Part shown: in pieces, positions 3,802 through 15,025 of the stretch
Numbering within the stretch: the first letter of the stretch is position 1
Layout: every line of letters begins with the position of its first letter
Origin: Kribbella antiqua
GTDB taxonomy: Bacteria > Actinomycetota > Actinomycetes > Propionibacteriales > Kribbellaceae
Assembly: GCF_004345665.1 (NCBI RefSeq)
Contig: NZ_SLWR01000001.1
Span: 124,001 to 188,000 of the forward strand
Direction: 5' to 3'
Length of the DNA stretch: 64,000 bases
The notes under the pieces: model-generated
Seen by the model: only the letters and a program-made list of their open reading frames with translations
Told to the model about the DNA's origin: nothing
Databases searched by the model: none
Made by a program: the position numbers and the translations under genes

Positions 3802-5136
3802 ATGCGCGAGGCGAGGCTCGTCGGTCTGAGCCAGGATGGCAAGCAACTCATCCTGGCGCTGGCAGAGACGGGTGAGGAGTTCGCCATCCCGGTCGACGAC
3901 CGGTTGCGTGCGGCCCTCCGCGGCGACCGTGCCCGACTCGGCCAGCTGGAGATTCAAATGGAGAGCGCGCTGCGCCCACGAGACATCCAGGCTCGTATCC
4001 GCGCCGGCGAAAGTCCCGAAGCGGTCGCTGCCGTCGCCCAGATGCCGATGGAACGCGTGATGGCGTTCGCGGGCCCGGTGCTGGCCGAGCGCGACCACAT
4101 TGCCAGCCTCGCCCAGCGCGCGTCCGTCCGCCGCCGGGGTGGCGCCGACGCCCCGGCCCGCAACCTCGGCGCGTGGGTGACCGAGCGACTCCGCACCCGC
4201 CAGGTCGACCCCGCGTCGGCCGACTGGGACGCGTGGCGCCGCGAAGACGGTCGCTGGGCGGTCCGCGTCTCCTACTTCGTCGAGGCCGACGACGAGGCGG
4301 AGCAGAAGGACGAGAAGATCGCCATGTTCGCGTACGACGCTCCTGGTCGCTACGCCGTACCGGACGACGACGAAGCCCGGTGGCTGGTCGGTGAGCAGGC
4401 CCAGGTCATGCCGCCGCCGGTCCAGCCCACGCATGTCCCGGGCGAACGGCGACTGAGCGCGGTCGCCGACATCGACCTGACGATCGCGCCCGACCACGGC
4501 GCCGACAGCTACGAAGCCGGCTTCGAGGACACCATCAGCCTGCCTCGCAGAAACCATCCGGTTTCCCGGGAGACTCCGCAGGAGCCTGAGCGTGGTCCAC
4601 GCCGGGTGCACTCGGTGCCGAACCCGGACGAAGAGCCGACGCTGATCGACGTACCGATCGAGCAACCGCCGACGCTGCGTCCAGCAGTTCGTGCGGTGGA
4701 GCGTCCTGCGCAGCCGCCGGCCGAGGCCGCATCCTTCGCGCCGCCGGAGGAACGCGCCGCCGCCCCCGAGAACCCCTTCACCGAGCGCCGAGTCAGCCCG
4801 GACCGCACGCCTGCCCCAGTGCGGCAGGCGCCCGAGCCTCGCACTCCCGCTGAGCGTCCGGCGGCCGCTGCTCGCCCGACTCCAGTCGACCGCCCGGCTC
4901 CGGCCGACCGCCTCGCTCCCGCCGAGCCAGAGCAGCCGCCGCTGGAGCCGGCCCTTGAACCAGCCCAGCAACCGGCCTCCGAGCCACCCGCCGCCGAGGC
5001 GCCTGCCTCTGCGACGGAGCCGGCTGCCGCGGAAGAAGCGCCCGCCGAGCCCAAGAAGAAGCCGGCCCGCCGCAACGCCAAGCGTGCCTCGGTCCCGTCC
5101 TGGGACGAGATCATGTTCGGCAAGAAAGCGGACTGA
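3802..5136 (+). CDS. sepH: Septation protein SepH
   Basis: A 444-residue protein. The N-terminal about 165 residues match the SepH core (old DUF3071): MREARLVGLSQDGKQLILA, then the RIRAGESPEAVA helix-turn-helix-like segment. SepH binds FtsZ and stimulates its assembly at division septa, as known from Streptomyces. A long Pro/Ala/Glu-rich linker (about residues 230-420) follows, ending in the conserved short tail PSWDEIMFGKKAD. The start is well supported by AGGAGAAC 8 bases upstream. The upstream region holds TGTGAC repeats. The protein is soluble, with no membrane segment. Confidence 0.95.
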   Translation: MREARLVGLSQDGKQLILALAETGEEFAIPVDDRLRAALRGDRARLGQLEIQMESALRPRDIQARIRAGESPEAVAAVAQMPMERVMAFAGPVLAERDHIASLAQRASVRRRGGADAPARNLGAWVTERLRTRQVDPASADWDAWRREDGRWAVRVSYFVEADDEAEQKDEKIAMFAYDAPGRYAVPDDDEARWLVGEQAQVMPPPVQPTHVPGERRLSAVADIDLTIAPDHGADSYEAGFEDTISLPRRNHPVSRETPQEPERGPRRVHSVPNPDEEPTLIDVPIEQPPTLRPAVRAVERPAQPPAEAASFAPPEERAAAPENPFTERRVSPDRTPAPVRQAPEPRTPAERPAAAARPTPVDRPAPADRLAPAEPEQPPLEPALEPAQQPASEPPAAEAPASATEPAAAEEAPAEPKKKPARRNAKRASVPSWDEIMFGKKAD

Positions 5137-5366
5137 ACCCGCGGTCCAGTAGGTTCGCGGCCCATGGATCTCGAGCGGACCGCCCTGGAAGCCACACTGC
5201 TGGCAGTACGACGCGATCCACGCGCCCGTGAGGCGGTCGACGTGTGCTGCCGCCCGCTCCAATCCGGCGTAACGAAGGTGGACAGCGGAGCGCGCTACTG
5301 CTCGGCTGGGCCTGTGGTCGAGGAGGGGACCAGCGGATGGCCTAGATGCTCGCCGCTCGTTGACAC
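5137..5366. other. Intergenic region after sepH with no supported gene
   Basis: This stretch runs from the sepH stop towards the poly-Cys leader region. An open frame from an ATG at 5164 stays open to 5472, where it ends in the poly-Cys peptide. Only its first 35 or so codons look coding, no family is recognised, and an antisense frame is equally open. I do not call a gene. No clear terminator hairpin was seen. Confidence 0.4.
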
Positions 5367-5429
5367 ATCACGGACAGTCGTCCCAGATCGCGGACAGTGT
5401 TTGGCATCGCGGGGCGAAGCTGTCATGAT
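5367..5429 (+). promoter_or_regulatory. Promoter with paired direct repeats before the poly-Cys leader
   Basis: Two 12-base direct repeats, ATC(A/G)CGGACAGT, lie at 5367-5378 and 5387-5398, exactly 20 bases apart. They abut a -35-like TTGGCA (5401-5406; 5 of 6 to TTGACA). A 17-base spacer leads to CATGAT (5424-5429; 4 of 6 to TATAAT), and the leader ATG follows 7 bases later. The arrangement fits an activator-dependent promoter making a leaderless transcript. Regulator identity is unknown. Confidence 0.55.
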
Positions 5430-5436
5430 CTTCCGC

Positions 5437-5472
5437 ATGCAGATCCTGCTGTGTTGTTGCTGTTGTCGCTGA
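5437..5472 (+). CDS. Poly-cysteine leader peptide MQILLCCCCCR
   Basis: An 11-codon ORF with five consecutive Cys codons (TGT TGT TGC TGT TGT) followed by CGC TGA. Short leaderless poly-Cys ORFs are known in mycobacteria as cysteine-responsive attenuators of downstream genes, and this one has the same form. The -10 box placed 7 bases upstream would start the mRNA at the ATG. An in-frame ATG at 5425 would add M-I-F-R. Codons 2-4 (AGATCCTG, 5441-5448) are perfectly complementary to CAGGATCT (5539-5546), which overlaps the ribosome-binding site of the next gene. Low Cys-tRNA would stall a ribosome over this segment and could free that site. Confidence 0.75.
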   Translation: MQILLCCCCCR

Positions 5473-5553
5473 CGCGCGCCGTCTCCGGCGCACGAGGCCC
5501 TGTCCTATCCGAGGCCCGCCCGCCGACACCAGCACTCACAGGATCTTCCGCAC
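5473..5553 (+). promoter_or_regulatory. Attenuator region between the poly-Cys leader and its target gene
   Basis: The spacer begins with a small hairpin (GCGCC 5476-5480, GGCGC 5487-5491) just after the leader stop. Two GAGGCCC copies follow at 5494 and 5511. The spacer ends with CAGGATCT (5539-5546), whose AGGA is the only Shine-Dalgarno-like sequence before the ATG at 5554 and which can pair with leader codons 2-4. No U-run is present, so a translational switch fits better than intrinsic termination. This is inferred from complementarity only. Confidence 0.5.
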
Positions 5554-5967
5554 ATGAATCTCCCGGCCTTCGCTGATCTTCTCGCGTCCCGCGGCCTCCG
5601 GCTGCTGCCCGGCTCGCACGCGGTCCCCGTCGAGCTGCTCGTTCAGTTGCCTGACGCAACGATTGCCCGGTTCACCGCCCGCGGCACCACGCTCCGGCTG
5701 CGCCGCTACTCCCCCGACGCGCTGACCGCGATCACCATCGCCGCCGAGTGCGGCTGCGGCGACCACCACCCGCAGACCGGCCCGACCCGCGTCACCCTGG
5801 GCCGGTACGCCGTACCGTTCGACGAGCGCACCATCGACGGCGAGCTCCTGTTCGGCTGGCAGCACCACGAGGCCGGCCTCCTCCGCCTCCCCGACGCCGC
5901 CACCCACTTCTTCACCCTCCTCGACCAGCTCCACGCCCCCACCCGCGAGCTGGTCCGCGTCGCCTGA
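5554..5967 (+). CDS. Conserved-looking hypothetical protein with CGCGDHH motif
   Basis: A 137-residue protein of unknown family, with no signal peptide or membrane segment. It has a Cys/His cluster, ECGCGDHHPQTGP (about residues 66-78), and a WQHHEAG stretch that could bind metal. Its position under a poly-Cys leader suggests a role in sulfur or cysteine metabolism or in redox or metal handling, but that is context only. Its weak SD (AGGA) may be masked by the leader. A hairpin-repeat array follows downstream, before the convergent HxlR gene. Confidence 0.7.
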   Translation: MNLPAFADLLASRGLRLLPGSHAVPVELLVQLPDATIARFTARGTTLRLRRYSPDALTAITIAAECGCGDHHPQTGPTRVTLGRYAVPFDERTIDGELLFGWQHHEAGLLRLPDAATHFFTLLDQLHAPTRELVRVA

Positions 5968-5976
5968 GCACTCTCC

Positions 5977-6400
5977 ACCTTGAGCACCCACCGACCACTC
6001 GCGGAGGCGATTTCATGGTCGCTCCGACGGCGGACGCCGTGGTCGAGGCGGCACCACCTTGAGCACCCGCCAACCACCCGTGGGGCGATCTCATGGTCGG
6101 TGGATGCCCAAGGTCGCACGACGGCGTACACCGGGGTCGACGCGACAGCACCTTGAGCACCCGCCAACCACCCGTGGGGCGCCTTCGTGGTCGGTGGGTG
6201 CTCAAGGTCGCTCCGACGGGCGGACGCCCGTGTCGAGGCTGCACCACCTTGAGCACGCATCGACCACTCGTGGGGCATTTTCGTGGTTGGTGGATGCCCA
6301 AGGTCGCACCGACGGGCGGACGCCGGGGTCCAGGCGGCACCACCTTGGGCACGCATCGACCACTCGTGGGGCGCTTTCGTGGTCGGTGGATGCTCAAGGT
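5977..6400. repeat. Five tandem 94-96-bp hairpin repeats
   Basis: Units begin at 5977, 6056, 6150, 6246 and 6342, each with ACCTTG(A/G)GCAC. Each complete unit holds a 22-base left arm and a 22-base right arm (GTGGTCGGTGG(A/G)TGC(T/C)CAAGGT type) around a 15-base loop. Arms match at 17-20 of 22 positions. Examples are 6150-6171 with 6187-6208, and 6342-6363 with 6379-6400. The first unit is only 79 bases because it lacks the right arm. The array fills the gap between the convergent ORFs at 5967 and 6448. Both strands are open in some frames, but nothing supports a protein. Confidence 0.85.
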
Positions 6401-6447
6401 CCCTCGACGGCGTACGCCGACGCCGGCGGGCCGCAGCGTGTGAGGGT

Positions 6448-13561: not shown

Positions 13562-14374
13562 TCAGTCCTTGCCGGTGGCTACTGGGCGGGTCGGGTCGGT
13601 GATCCATTCGGACCAGGAGCCGACGTAGAGGGTTGCGGGGATGCCGGAGATTTCGAGGGCCAGGGCTTCGTGGGCGGCGGTGACGCCGGAGCCGCAGTAG
13701 ACGCCTACTTGGGTTGACTCGTTGGCGCCGAGCTTTTCGAAGCGTTCGCGGAGTTCGGCGGCGGGGAGGAAGCGGCCGGTCTCGTCGACGTTGGCGGTGG
13801 TGGGGGCGTTGACGGCGCCCGGGATGTGGCCGGCGACCGGGTCCATCGGCTCGACCTCGCCGGCGAAGCGCTCCGGTGCCCGCGCATCCAGGAGTACGCC
13901 GGATGCCGCCACCTCCGCAGCTCCAGAAGCGTCCAGGAGAGGGATGTGACCCGCCGTCGCGATGAAGGAACCGTTGCCGTCGGCAGGTACTTCGGCGGTC
14001 ACCTCTCCCCCGGCCGCCTTCCACGCCGCGAGCCCACCATCGAGAACCCGCACGTCCCGCAGACCGAAGTACCGGAAGATCCACCAGGCCCGCGCGGCCG
14101 CCGTCGAGTTCGCCGCGTCGTACACGACGACCGGGGTGCTCGGACCGACGCCGGCACGCCGCAGCGCGCCGGTCACGGTGGTTGCTGCAGGCAACGGATG
14201 GCGTCCGGGTCCGGGCGGTCCGGCGAGCTCGGTGTCCAGGTCGACGAAGTACGCCCCCGGGATGTGGCCGGCGTCGTACGCCTCCCGCCCCGGCGGACCG
14301 GCCAGGTTCCAGGTGACGTCAATCAGCACAGGCTCCAGAGCCCGCAGCTCGTCGACGGTGATCAAGGGACTCAC
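13562..14374 (-). CDS. Thiosulfate/3-mercaptopyruvate sulfurtransferase (two rhodanese domains)
   Basis: A 270-residue tandem-rhodanese enzyme of SseA type. The N-terminal inactive domain has AWWIFRYFGLRDVRVLDGGL. The C-terminal domain has the catalytic loop CGSGVTA, which carries the persulfide Cys and matches the CG(S/T)GVTA loop of mercaptopyruvate sulfurtransferases. The GTG at 14374 has GGAGGAG 7 bases upstream and overlaps the end of the tdk reading frame as GTGA. A downstream small gene follows with zero spacing. It moves sulfane sulfur in the cytoplasm. Confidence 0.92.
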   Translation of the reverse strand: MSPLITVDELRALEPVLIDVTWNLAGPPGREAYDAGHIPGAYFVDLDTELAGPPGPGRHPLPAATTVTGALRRAGVGPSTPVVVYDAANSTAAARAWWIFRYFGLRDVRVLDGGLAAWKAAGGEVTAEVPADGNGSFIATAGHIPLLDASGAAEVAASGVLLDARAPERFAGEVEPMDPVAGHIPGAVNAPTTANVDETGRFLPAAELRERFEKLGANESTQVGVYCGSGVTAAHEALALEISGIPATLYVGSWSEWITDPTRPVATGKD

Positions 14375-15025
14375 GATGCGGCTCCTCCGAATGGCAGTAC
14401 CTCGGGTGACAGGGTCGCACGGGCCCGTGCCTGGGTGAGCCGGCGCCGGTGATGCCGCCGGCACAGCACCTCATAGGAGACCTCGTGGTCGTGCCTCTCG
14501 ATGTCGCCGACCACTAGCTGCTCGCCCTCTGTCACCATCTCACCGCCGATCGTACGTGCGTTGTGGCGTGGCTCGCTCACCGCACCAGCACAACGCCTCG
14601 ACCTGCAGCAGCTCCATCCGGTCCGCCAGCTCCACCAGCCGGGCCGAACCCGGGAAGAGCGTCGCGCGGAAGTCGGTCAGGATCCCGAAGCAGAAGACGT
14701 CGATCTGCAGCTCGTCCACCAGCCGGGCCAGCTGCTCGACCTGCAGCGGGCTGTAGAACTGCGCCTCGTCGCACACCACGTAGTCGATCCGGCCGCCGTG
14801 CGTCAGCTCACCGACGGCGTACTCCCAGAAGTCGAACTCCGTGCGTACCTCGATCGCCTTCGCGGCCAGTCCGAGCCGGGACGAGAGCACCGAGTCCCCG
14901 GCCCGGTCGTGGCTGGTGAAAATCCGCCCGATCCGTCCGCGCGCCTTGTGGTTGTGGTCCATCTGAAGCGCCAGCGTGGACTTGCCGCAGTCCATGGTCC
15001 CGGTGAAGTAGAGCAGCTCTGCCAC
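14371..15025 (-). pseudogene. tdk: Thymidine kinase, broken by a single-base frameshift
   Basis: Frame A (15025-14540) encodes VAELLYFTGTMDCGKSTL with the P-loop at residues 9-17, the DEAQF motif, and ends CWCGERATPQRTYDRR-stop. The expected ending, NARTIGGEMV through YEVLCRRHH, is present in another frame (14580-14371). Removing one base in the run at about 14563-14568 joins them into a normal protein of about 217 residues. The zinc site would then use CWC from frame A and the Cys/His of LCRRH from frame B. As written, frame A lacks half the zinc site. The GTG start at 15025 has only a weak RBS. The cause could be a real mutation, a programmed shift or a sequencing error. Confidence 0.85.

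Follow-up and report, generated by a model that had tools for sequence, protein, structure and literature searches.

In Mycobacterium, leaderless short open reading frames (ORFs) that carry poly-Cys runs are cysteine-responsive attenuators, according to the passages of PMC9031893, PMC9094748, and PMC13236596 that relay the work of Canestrari et al. (2020), and the initial annotation of the present locus had likewise named poly-Cys leaders as known attenuators in mycobacteria. Masking of the Shine-Dalgarno (SD) sequence through pairing with the upstream ORF (uORF) has been reported as a feature of such translation attenuation (PMC13236596). Candidate Cys leaders, all terminator-free, have also been proposed for the cys operons of Mycobacterium, Propionibacterium acnes, and Bifidobacterium (Seliverstov et al. 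2005, PMC1262725). Here we describe a Kribbella locus at which, with a probability of roughly 80%, a cysteine-responsive translational attenuator controls a gene for a 137-amino-acid protein.

The window, a 64,000-nucleotide stretch of Kribbella antiqua DNA, holds this target gene at positions 5554-5967 (+), where it stands alone between sepH (3802-5136) and a gene for an HxlR-type regulator. The leader ORF upstream of it (5437-5472, +), predicted to be leaderless, encodes MQILLCCCCCR with the codons ATG CAG ATC CTG CTG TGT TGT TGC TGT TGT CGC TGA; its five contiguous Cys codons, in the order TGT TGT TGC TGT TGT, lie directly upstream of the target gene. Direct reading bore out the five-Cys leader proposed by the initial annotation, all of whose coordinates were correct. 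Directly 3' of the target gene is a tandem array of a 96-nt unit (window positions 6013-6418; 4.3 copies, 83% matches).

The target gene was found in 38 of 38 Kribbella genomes sampled, as well as in 8 genomes of a second family (f4) and 4 of a third (f3), and a Cys-codon leader lies about 90-140 nt upstream of it in all 50 of these 50 gene-carrying genomes of the order Propionibacteriales. The Kribbella leaders include MQMLCCCCCR, MRISLCCRCCCR, and MRITLCCCCCCCR, and those of f4 include MRSGVLHRCCCCC and MRFDVLCRCCCR; the f3 leaders read MHHLCCRCR, MSHLCCRCR, MLHLCCRCR, and MTFLCCRCR, so that their Cys stretch is CCRC. A covariance model built from the Kribbella leaders had one match per Kribbella genome, always at the target gene, and independently matched the site at the f3 gene (E = 1.4e-5). 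One Kribbella genome carries a frameshifted partial second copy of the gene (L236; G019:C1:4109382-4109676) ~9 kb from the intact one.

A promoter with an extended -10 element, TTGGCA-17-CATGAT, is predicted at 5401-5429 (+) and is the sole promoter-like site in 5150-6020 (mean of 0.0 in shuffled sequences). Its end lies 7 nt before the leader ATG, which places it for transcription to start at the ATG itself, in line with the leaderless mRNA that had been proposed. By eye, most relatives have a -10-like hexamer 6-7 nt before the leader start codon, a spacing also kept by two f4 leaders whose start codon is GTG, while the hexamer of one f3 leader (L069) looks nearer to 9 nt from the start codon. 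Judging from the sequence, we infer that the leader mRNA would begin without a 5' untranslated region.

Just upstream of the -35 hexamer, at 5367-5398 (+), are the twin 12-nt repeats that the initial annotation had pointed out and that can be read directly, ATCACGGACAGT (5367-5378) and ATCGCGGACAGT (5387-5398), with a period of 20 nt. They are the only matches in the window at ≤1 mismatch, and a search of the window genome found no further copy of the element at ≤3 mismatches; two copies of the repeat word arose in 17 of 100 shuffles when the 20-nt spacing was not required. By eye, the upstream regions of most Kribbella and of several f4 members have a related element, GGACA..TGTCC plus another GGAC 20 nt farther along, which adjoins the -35 hexamer (window 5367-5398; L063 and relatives). 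The twin repeats and the GGACA..TGTCC element may be an operator for some regulator.

The minimum-energy fold of the leader plus the intergenic region is one long stem in which the leader ORF pairs with the SD and the pre-SD region, enclosing two hairpins. At the base of this stem, the 5' codons of the leader (AGATCCTG, 5441-5448, +), a region that covaries, are the exact reverse complement of CAGGATCT (5539-5546, +), which includes the SD AGGA (5540-5543); the perfect complementarity between leader codons 2-4 and the SD region that the initial annotation had claimed is thus read directly from the DNA, and the predicted fold masks the SD with these codons at a pairing probability of 0.99. The Cys run pairs as well, with GCTG (5459-5462) and TGTCG (5464-5468) within 5459-5468 (+) matching CAGC and CGACA in the pre-SD segment CGACA-C-CAGC (5524-5533, +), which is near-invariant in Kribbella and changes together with the leader in L058. 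Of the enclosed hairpins, P1 (5473-5494, +) follows directly after the leader stop codon and is kept in all three families, albeit with different letters in each (CGCGCC:GGCGCG, GACC:GGTC, and CACCAGCC:GGCTGGTG), and P2 (5496-5516, +; GGCC:GGCC) is weaker, a second hairpin being present in f4 also. The same architecture was predicted for L030, L054, L058, L060, L062, L066, and L067 despite quite different letters, and fold z scores in divergent members ranged from -1.6 to -6.6. When the leader was removed, the SD was still predicted to be paired at 0.68 on average. Rfam covariance models gave only sub-threshold chance matches to the leader region.

Covariation between leader and SD in related genomes, on which the initial annotation had staked its proposal, is present. 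When the duplex energy of each leader with its own SD region was compared with its energy with the SD regions of other species, matched pairs bound better than swapped ones (P = 2e-5, 29 representatives, the species in these comparisons not being independent). The same held for the 5' codons alone (first 15 nt; P = 0.003) and for the Cys-run part alone (P = 0.0003), each with the 29 representatives. The swap test was not significant over all 38 Kribbella sequences (P = 0.44), because the core hardly varies among them, whereas Kribbella representatives gave P = 0.024; the four f3 sequences alone gave no signal (P = 0.50). RNAalifold covariation was likewise low in Kribbella alone because the letters hardly vary there. 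In divergent species, the pre-SD and SD pair with the 5' codons and Cys run of the species' own leader, and the letters on the two sides have changed together: GTATC:GATAC in L054, AGTTC:GAACT in L030, GCGAAT:ATTCGC in L058, GACGTCCT:AGGACGTC in L060, and GGCGTCCT:AGGACGCC in L067. The exact AGATCCTG:CAGGATCT register was rejected as a conserved feature, since apart from the window species only a few close relatives keep it. A synonymous-codon control was also dropped: actual leaders outdid synonymous ones in pairing when the latter were drawn with uniform codons (P = 4e-6) but not when they were drawn at genome codon usage (P = 0.31).

Could a GC-rich intergenic stretch have acquired a short ORF and a complementary segment by accident? 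An 8-bp perfect run was reached by 140 of 5000 shuffled leaders (2.8%), which makes the 8-bp match alone weak evidence, and poly-Cys-like DNA is common genome-wide. In the window genome such DNA is no commoner than in a reversed control, so we rejected the genome-wide count as evidence; the other leaders with ≥4 Cys codons were also set aside, as the rest look like chance ORFs within longer frames. Given the conservation in 50 of 50 genomes, the single site per genome, and the covariation, the arrangement stands above chance, and we regard accident as refuted to the point of being exceedingly improbable.

We modeled a ribosome on the leader in 47 sequences, using a footprint of assumed size that spanned 18 nt on the 5' side and 12 nt on the 3' side of the first base of the A-site codon. 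Without a ribosome, opening the region from the SD to the start codon cost 9.7 kcal/mol on average; this mean fell to 5.5 kcal/mol when the A site held the first Cys codon and to 5.6 kcal/mol when it held the second or third, and it was 6.7 kcal/mol with the ribosome at the last Cys codon and 7.1 kcal/mol with the ribosome at the stop codon. In 41 of the 47 sequences, opening was costlier with the ribosome at the stop codon than with it at the first Cys codon. The modeled ribosome hides codons 1-5 when on the first Cys codons and leaves them free for the SD when at the stop codon. In six members, mostly those with longer CCCCCxCC leaders, a ribosome on the first Cys codon gave no gain over the ribosome-free leader.

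With the leader, the placement of its promoter, the conservation, the covariation, the fold, and the energy differences established by comparison or calculation, a model can be drawn for how the switch may work. Transcription would start at the leader ATG and yield a leaderless mRNA. While no ribosome occupies the leader, codons 2-5 would fold onto the SD and the Cys run onto the pre-SD segment, around P1 and P2, and the folded leader would allow only poor translation of the 137-amino-acid protein. When Cys-tRNA is ample, the ribosome would reach the stop codon, where the first codons are free to hold the SD, and the fold would re-form upon its release. When Cys-tRNA is scarce, the ribosome would wait on the early Cys codons and cover the anti-SD codons, so that the SD would be freed and cysteine shortage would switch the gene on. 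The locus thus has a predicted mRNA structure that masks the ribosome-binding site and that a ribosome stalled on Cys codons is modeled to break. The initial annotation had proposed that such a stall frees the SD: the pairing principle, the covariation, and the footprint energies agree with it, whereas the exact letters of its 8-bp helix are not kept across species.

Stalling on the Cys codons, and with it a response to cysteine, is what the codon content of the leader would predict, although the Cys run could sense another signal, such as oxidized or modified tRNA-Cys, an inhibitor, or pausing at TGT as a rare codon, and work the same RNA switch. Codon usage lends itself to this idea, as the TGT:TGC ratio is 203:46 in the leaders versus 13:75 in window genes; TGT is, however, also demanded by pairing with the ACA-rich pre-SD segment. 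The Cys codons stay while the run length, the spacing, and the other residues vary, and homologues with unrelated leaders retain Cys codons near the leader end. Taken together, these observations make a signal other than cysteine supply quite improbable, and cysteine-responsive attenuation of translation is the reading that we carry forward.

The target protein belongs to a family that the initial annotation described as new, and none of 18 members had a convincing Pfam or NCBIfam family match. Cys66 and Cys68 are invariant in these 18 aligned members, and a His follows in nearly all of them. The CGCGDHH motif noted in the initial annotation is present in Kribbella, but in relatives it generalizes to CxC followed by His, with CDCGCGxH in most of f4 and CDCxxH in f3. 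The structure model of the target protein has a pLDDT of 87, and no confident fold match for it was found in the PDB (best Foldseek E value, 0.93; best VIA Z score, 5.9). In both f3 and f4, a nearby ORF on the opposite strand resembles the one at 13562-14464 in the window; we call it sulfurtransferase-like from reading its sequence and from this similarity rather than from a family search. A SepH-like ORF is close to the target gene in f4.

More distant homologues are found in a family of another order (f21), of which 28 were examined (L070-L097). These proteins are without the CxC motif, and 27 of the 28 genes are preceded by CATAAT, 6-7 nt, and a GTG that opens a conserved leader of 30-39 amino acids, predicted to be leaderless. 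This leader peptide, VTLRLQHG...CPCCPSPRAH and variants, lies 160-490 nt upstream of the gene and ends in a Cys-containing stretch (e.g., CPCCPSPRAH). Each of the 5 genomes tested has a single occurrence of the promoter-and-start pattern, and the one group that was aligned has no conserved ORF between leader and gene. By eye, the f21 leader segment CCCTCGCGC can pair with the downstream GCGCGAGGG rather than with the SD. From its sequence features, the f21 leader seems to be a cysteine attenuator of a second design that serves the same gene family.

The f21 arrangement, in which the leader lies far from the gene and its possible partner segment well 5' of the SD, is more suggestive of transcriptional control, and the Kribbella leader might likewise act on transcription, the position of the ribosome setting Rho-dependent or structure-dependent termination and SD masking being secondary. 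Rho has been suggested for cys operons behind poly-Cys leaders (Seliverstov et al. 2005, PMC1262725). Within the order, however, the conserved, covarying pairing ends on the SD itself, and no intrinsic terminator was found between leader and gene in 5150-6020. We consider control of transcription unlikely at the Kribbella locus, albeit less so than a signal other than cysteine, and retain translational attenuation as the preferred reading.

Since the f21 leaders are Cys-rich though built differently, the tie between the protein family and cysteine leaders is deeper than the SD-masking design. We give about even odds to the idea that the 137-amino-acid protein and its homologues are a dedicated, uncharacterized component of how actinomycetes respond to cysteine shortage, kept under leaders built in two ways; if so, the two designs would point either to an old association or to recruitment on more than one occasion. 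The arrangement would tie the protein family to cysteine supply, and it offers a clue to what this conserved family, which Pfam and NCBIfam lack, may do, since its members should be made under cysteine shortage. It is also a compact design in that the sensor codons are themselves the anti-SD strand.

Several described systems resemble this leader in part. The uORFC-8-2 motif upstream of cysS in Rhodobacterales also has tandem Cys codons in a uORF within a structured RNA, but it ends in an intrinsic terminator and attenuates transcription of cysS (PMC8632094). In the LEU element of leuA in Actinobacteria, it is likewise the regulatory codon run that, at a stem base, pairs with the next gene's SD; that element, however, has leucine codons, a pseudoknot, and leuA as its gene (PMC1262725). 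The Cys leaders of Seliverstov et al. (2005) share with ours a Cys codon run near the leader stop and the lack of a terminator, whereas conserved hairpins were not found in them (PMC1262725) and the structure at the Kribbella locus is conserved and covaries. Elsewhere in the same genome, the short ORF MDMLAARSTHLVGRIHVDLGRMRSAICCPSMF (L191; G000:C1:417709-417950) precedes a probable sulfite reductase-cysH-cysDN region, named from position and PF01507 hits; like the target leader, it is short and ends in Cys codons, and it stands before sulfur genes (a sulfate-assimilation operon), but its peptide is unrelated and has two Cys codons.

The closest relatives remain the mycobacterial poly-Cys attenuators, as portrayed in the passages cited above: there, too, a leaderless short ORF (here predicted to be so) carries contiguous Cys codons, and the speed of the ribosome controls the downstream gene. 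The Kribbella system differs in its taxa, in a target without a known family, those of mycobacteria being described as cysteine genes, and in that its leader ORF is itself the anti-SD strand. The mechanism has already been described for mycobacteria; the novelty lies in the taxa, in the evidence for covariation, and in the target, and cysteine attenuation by leaderless poly-Cys ORFs would thereby reach outside mycobacteria, with covariation to back the pairing.
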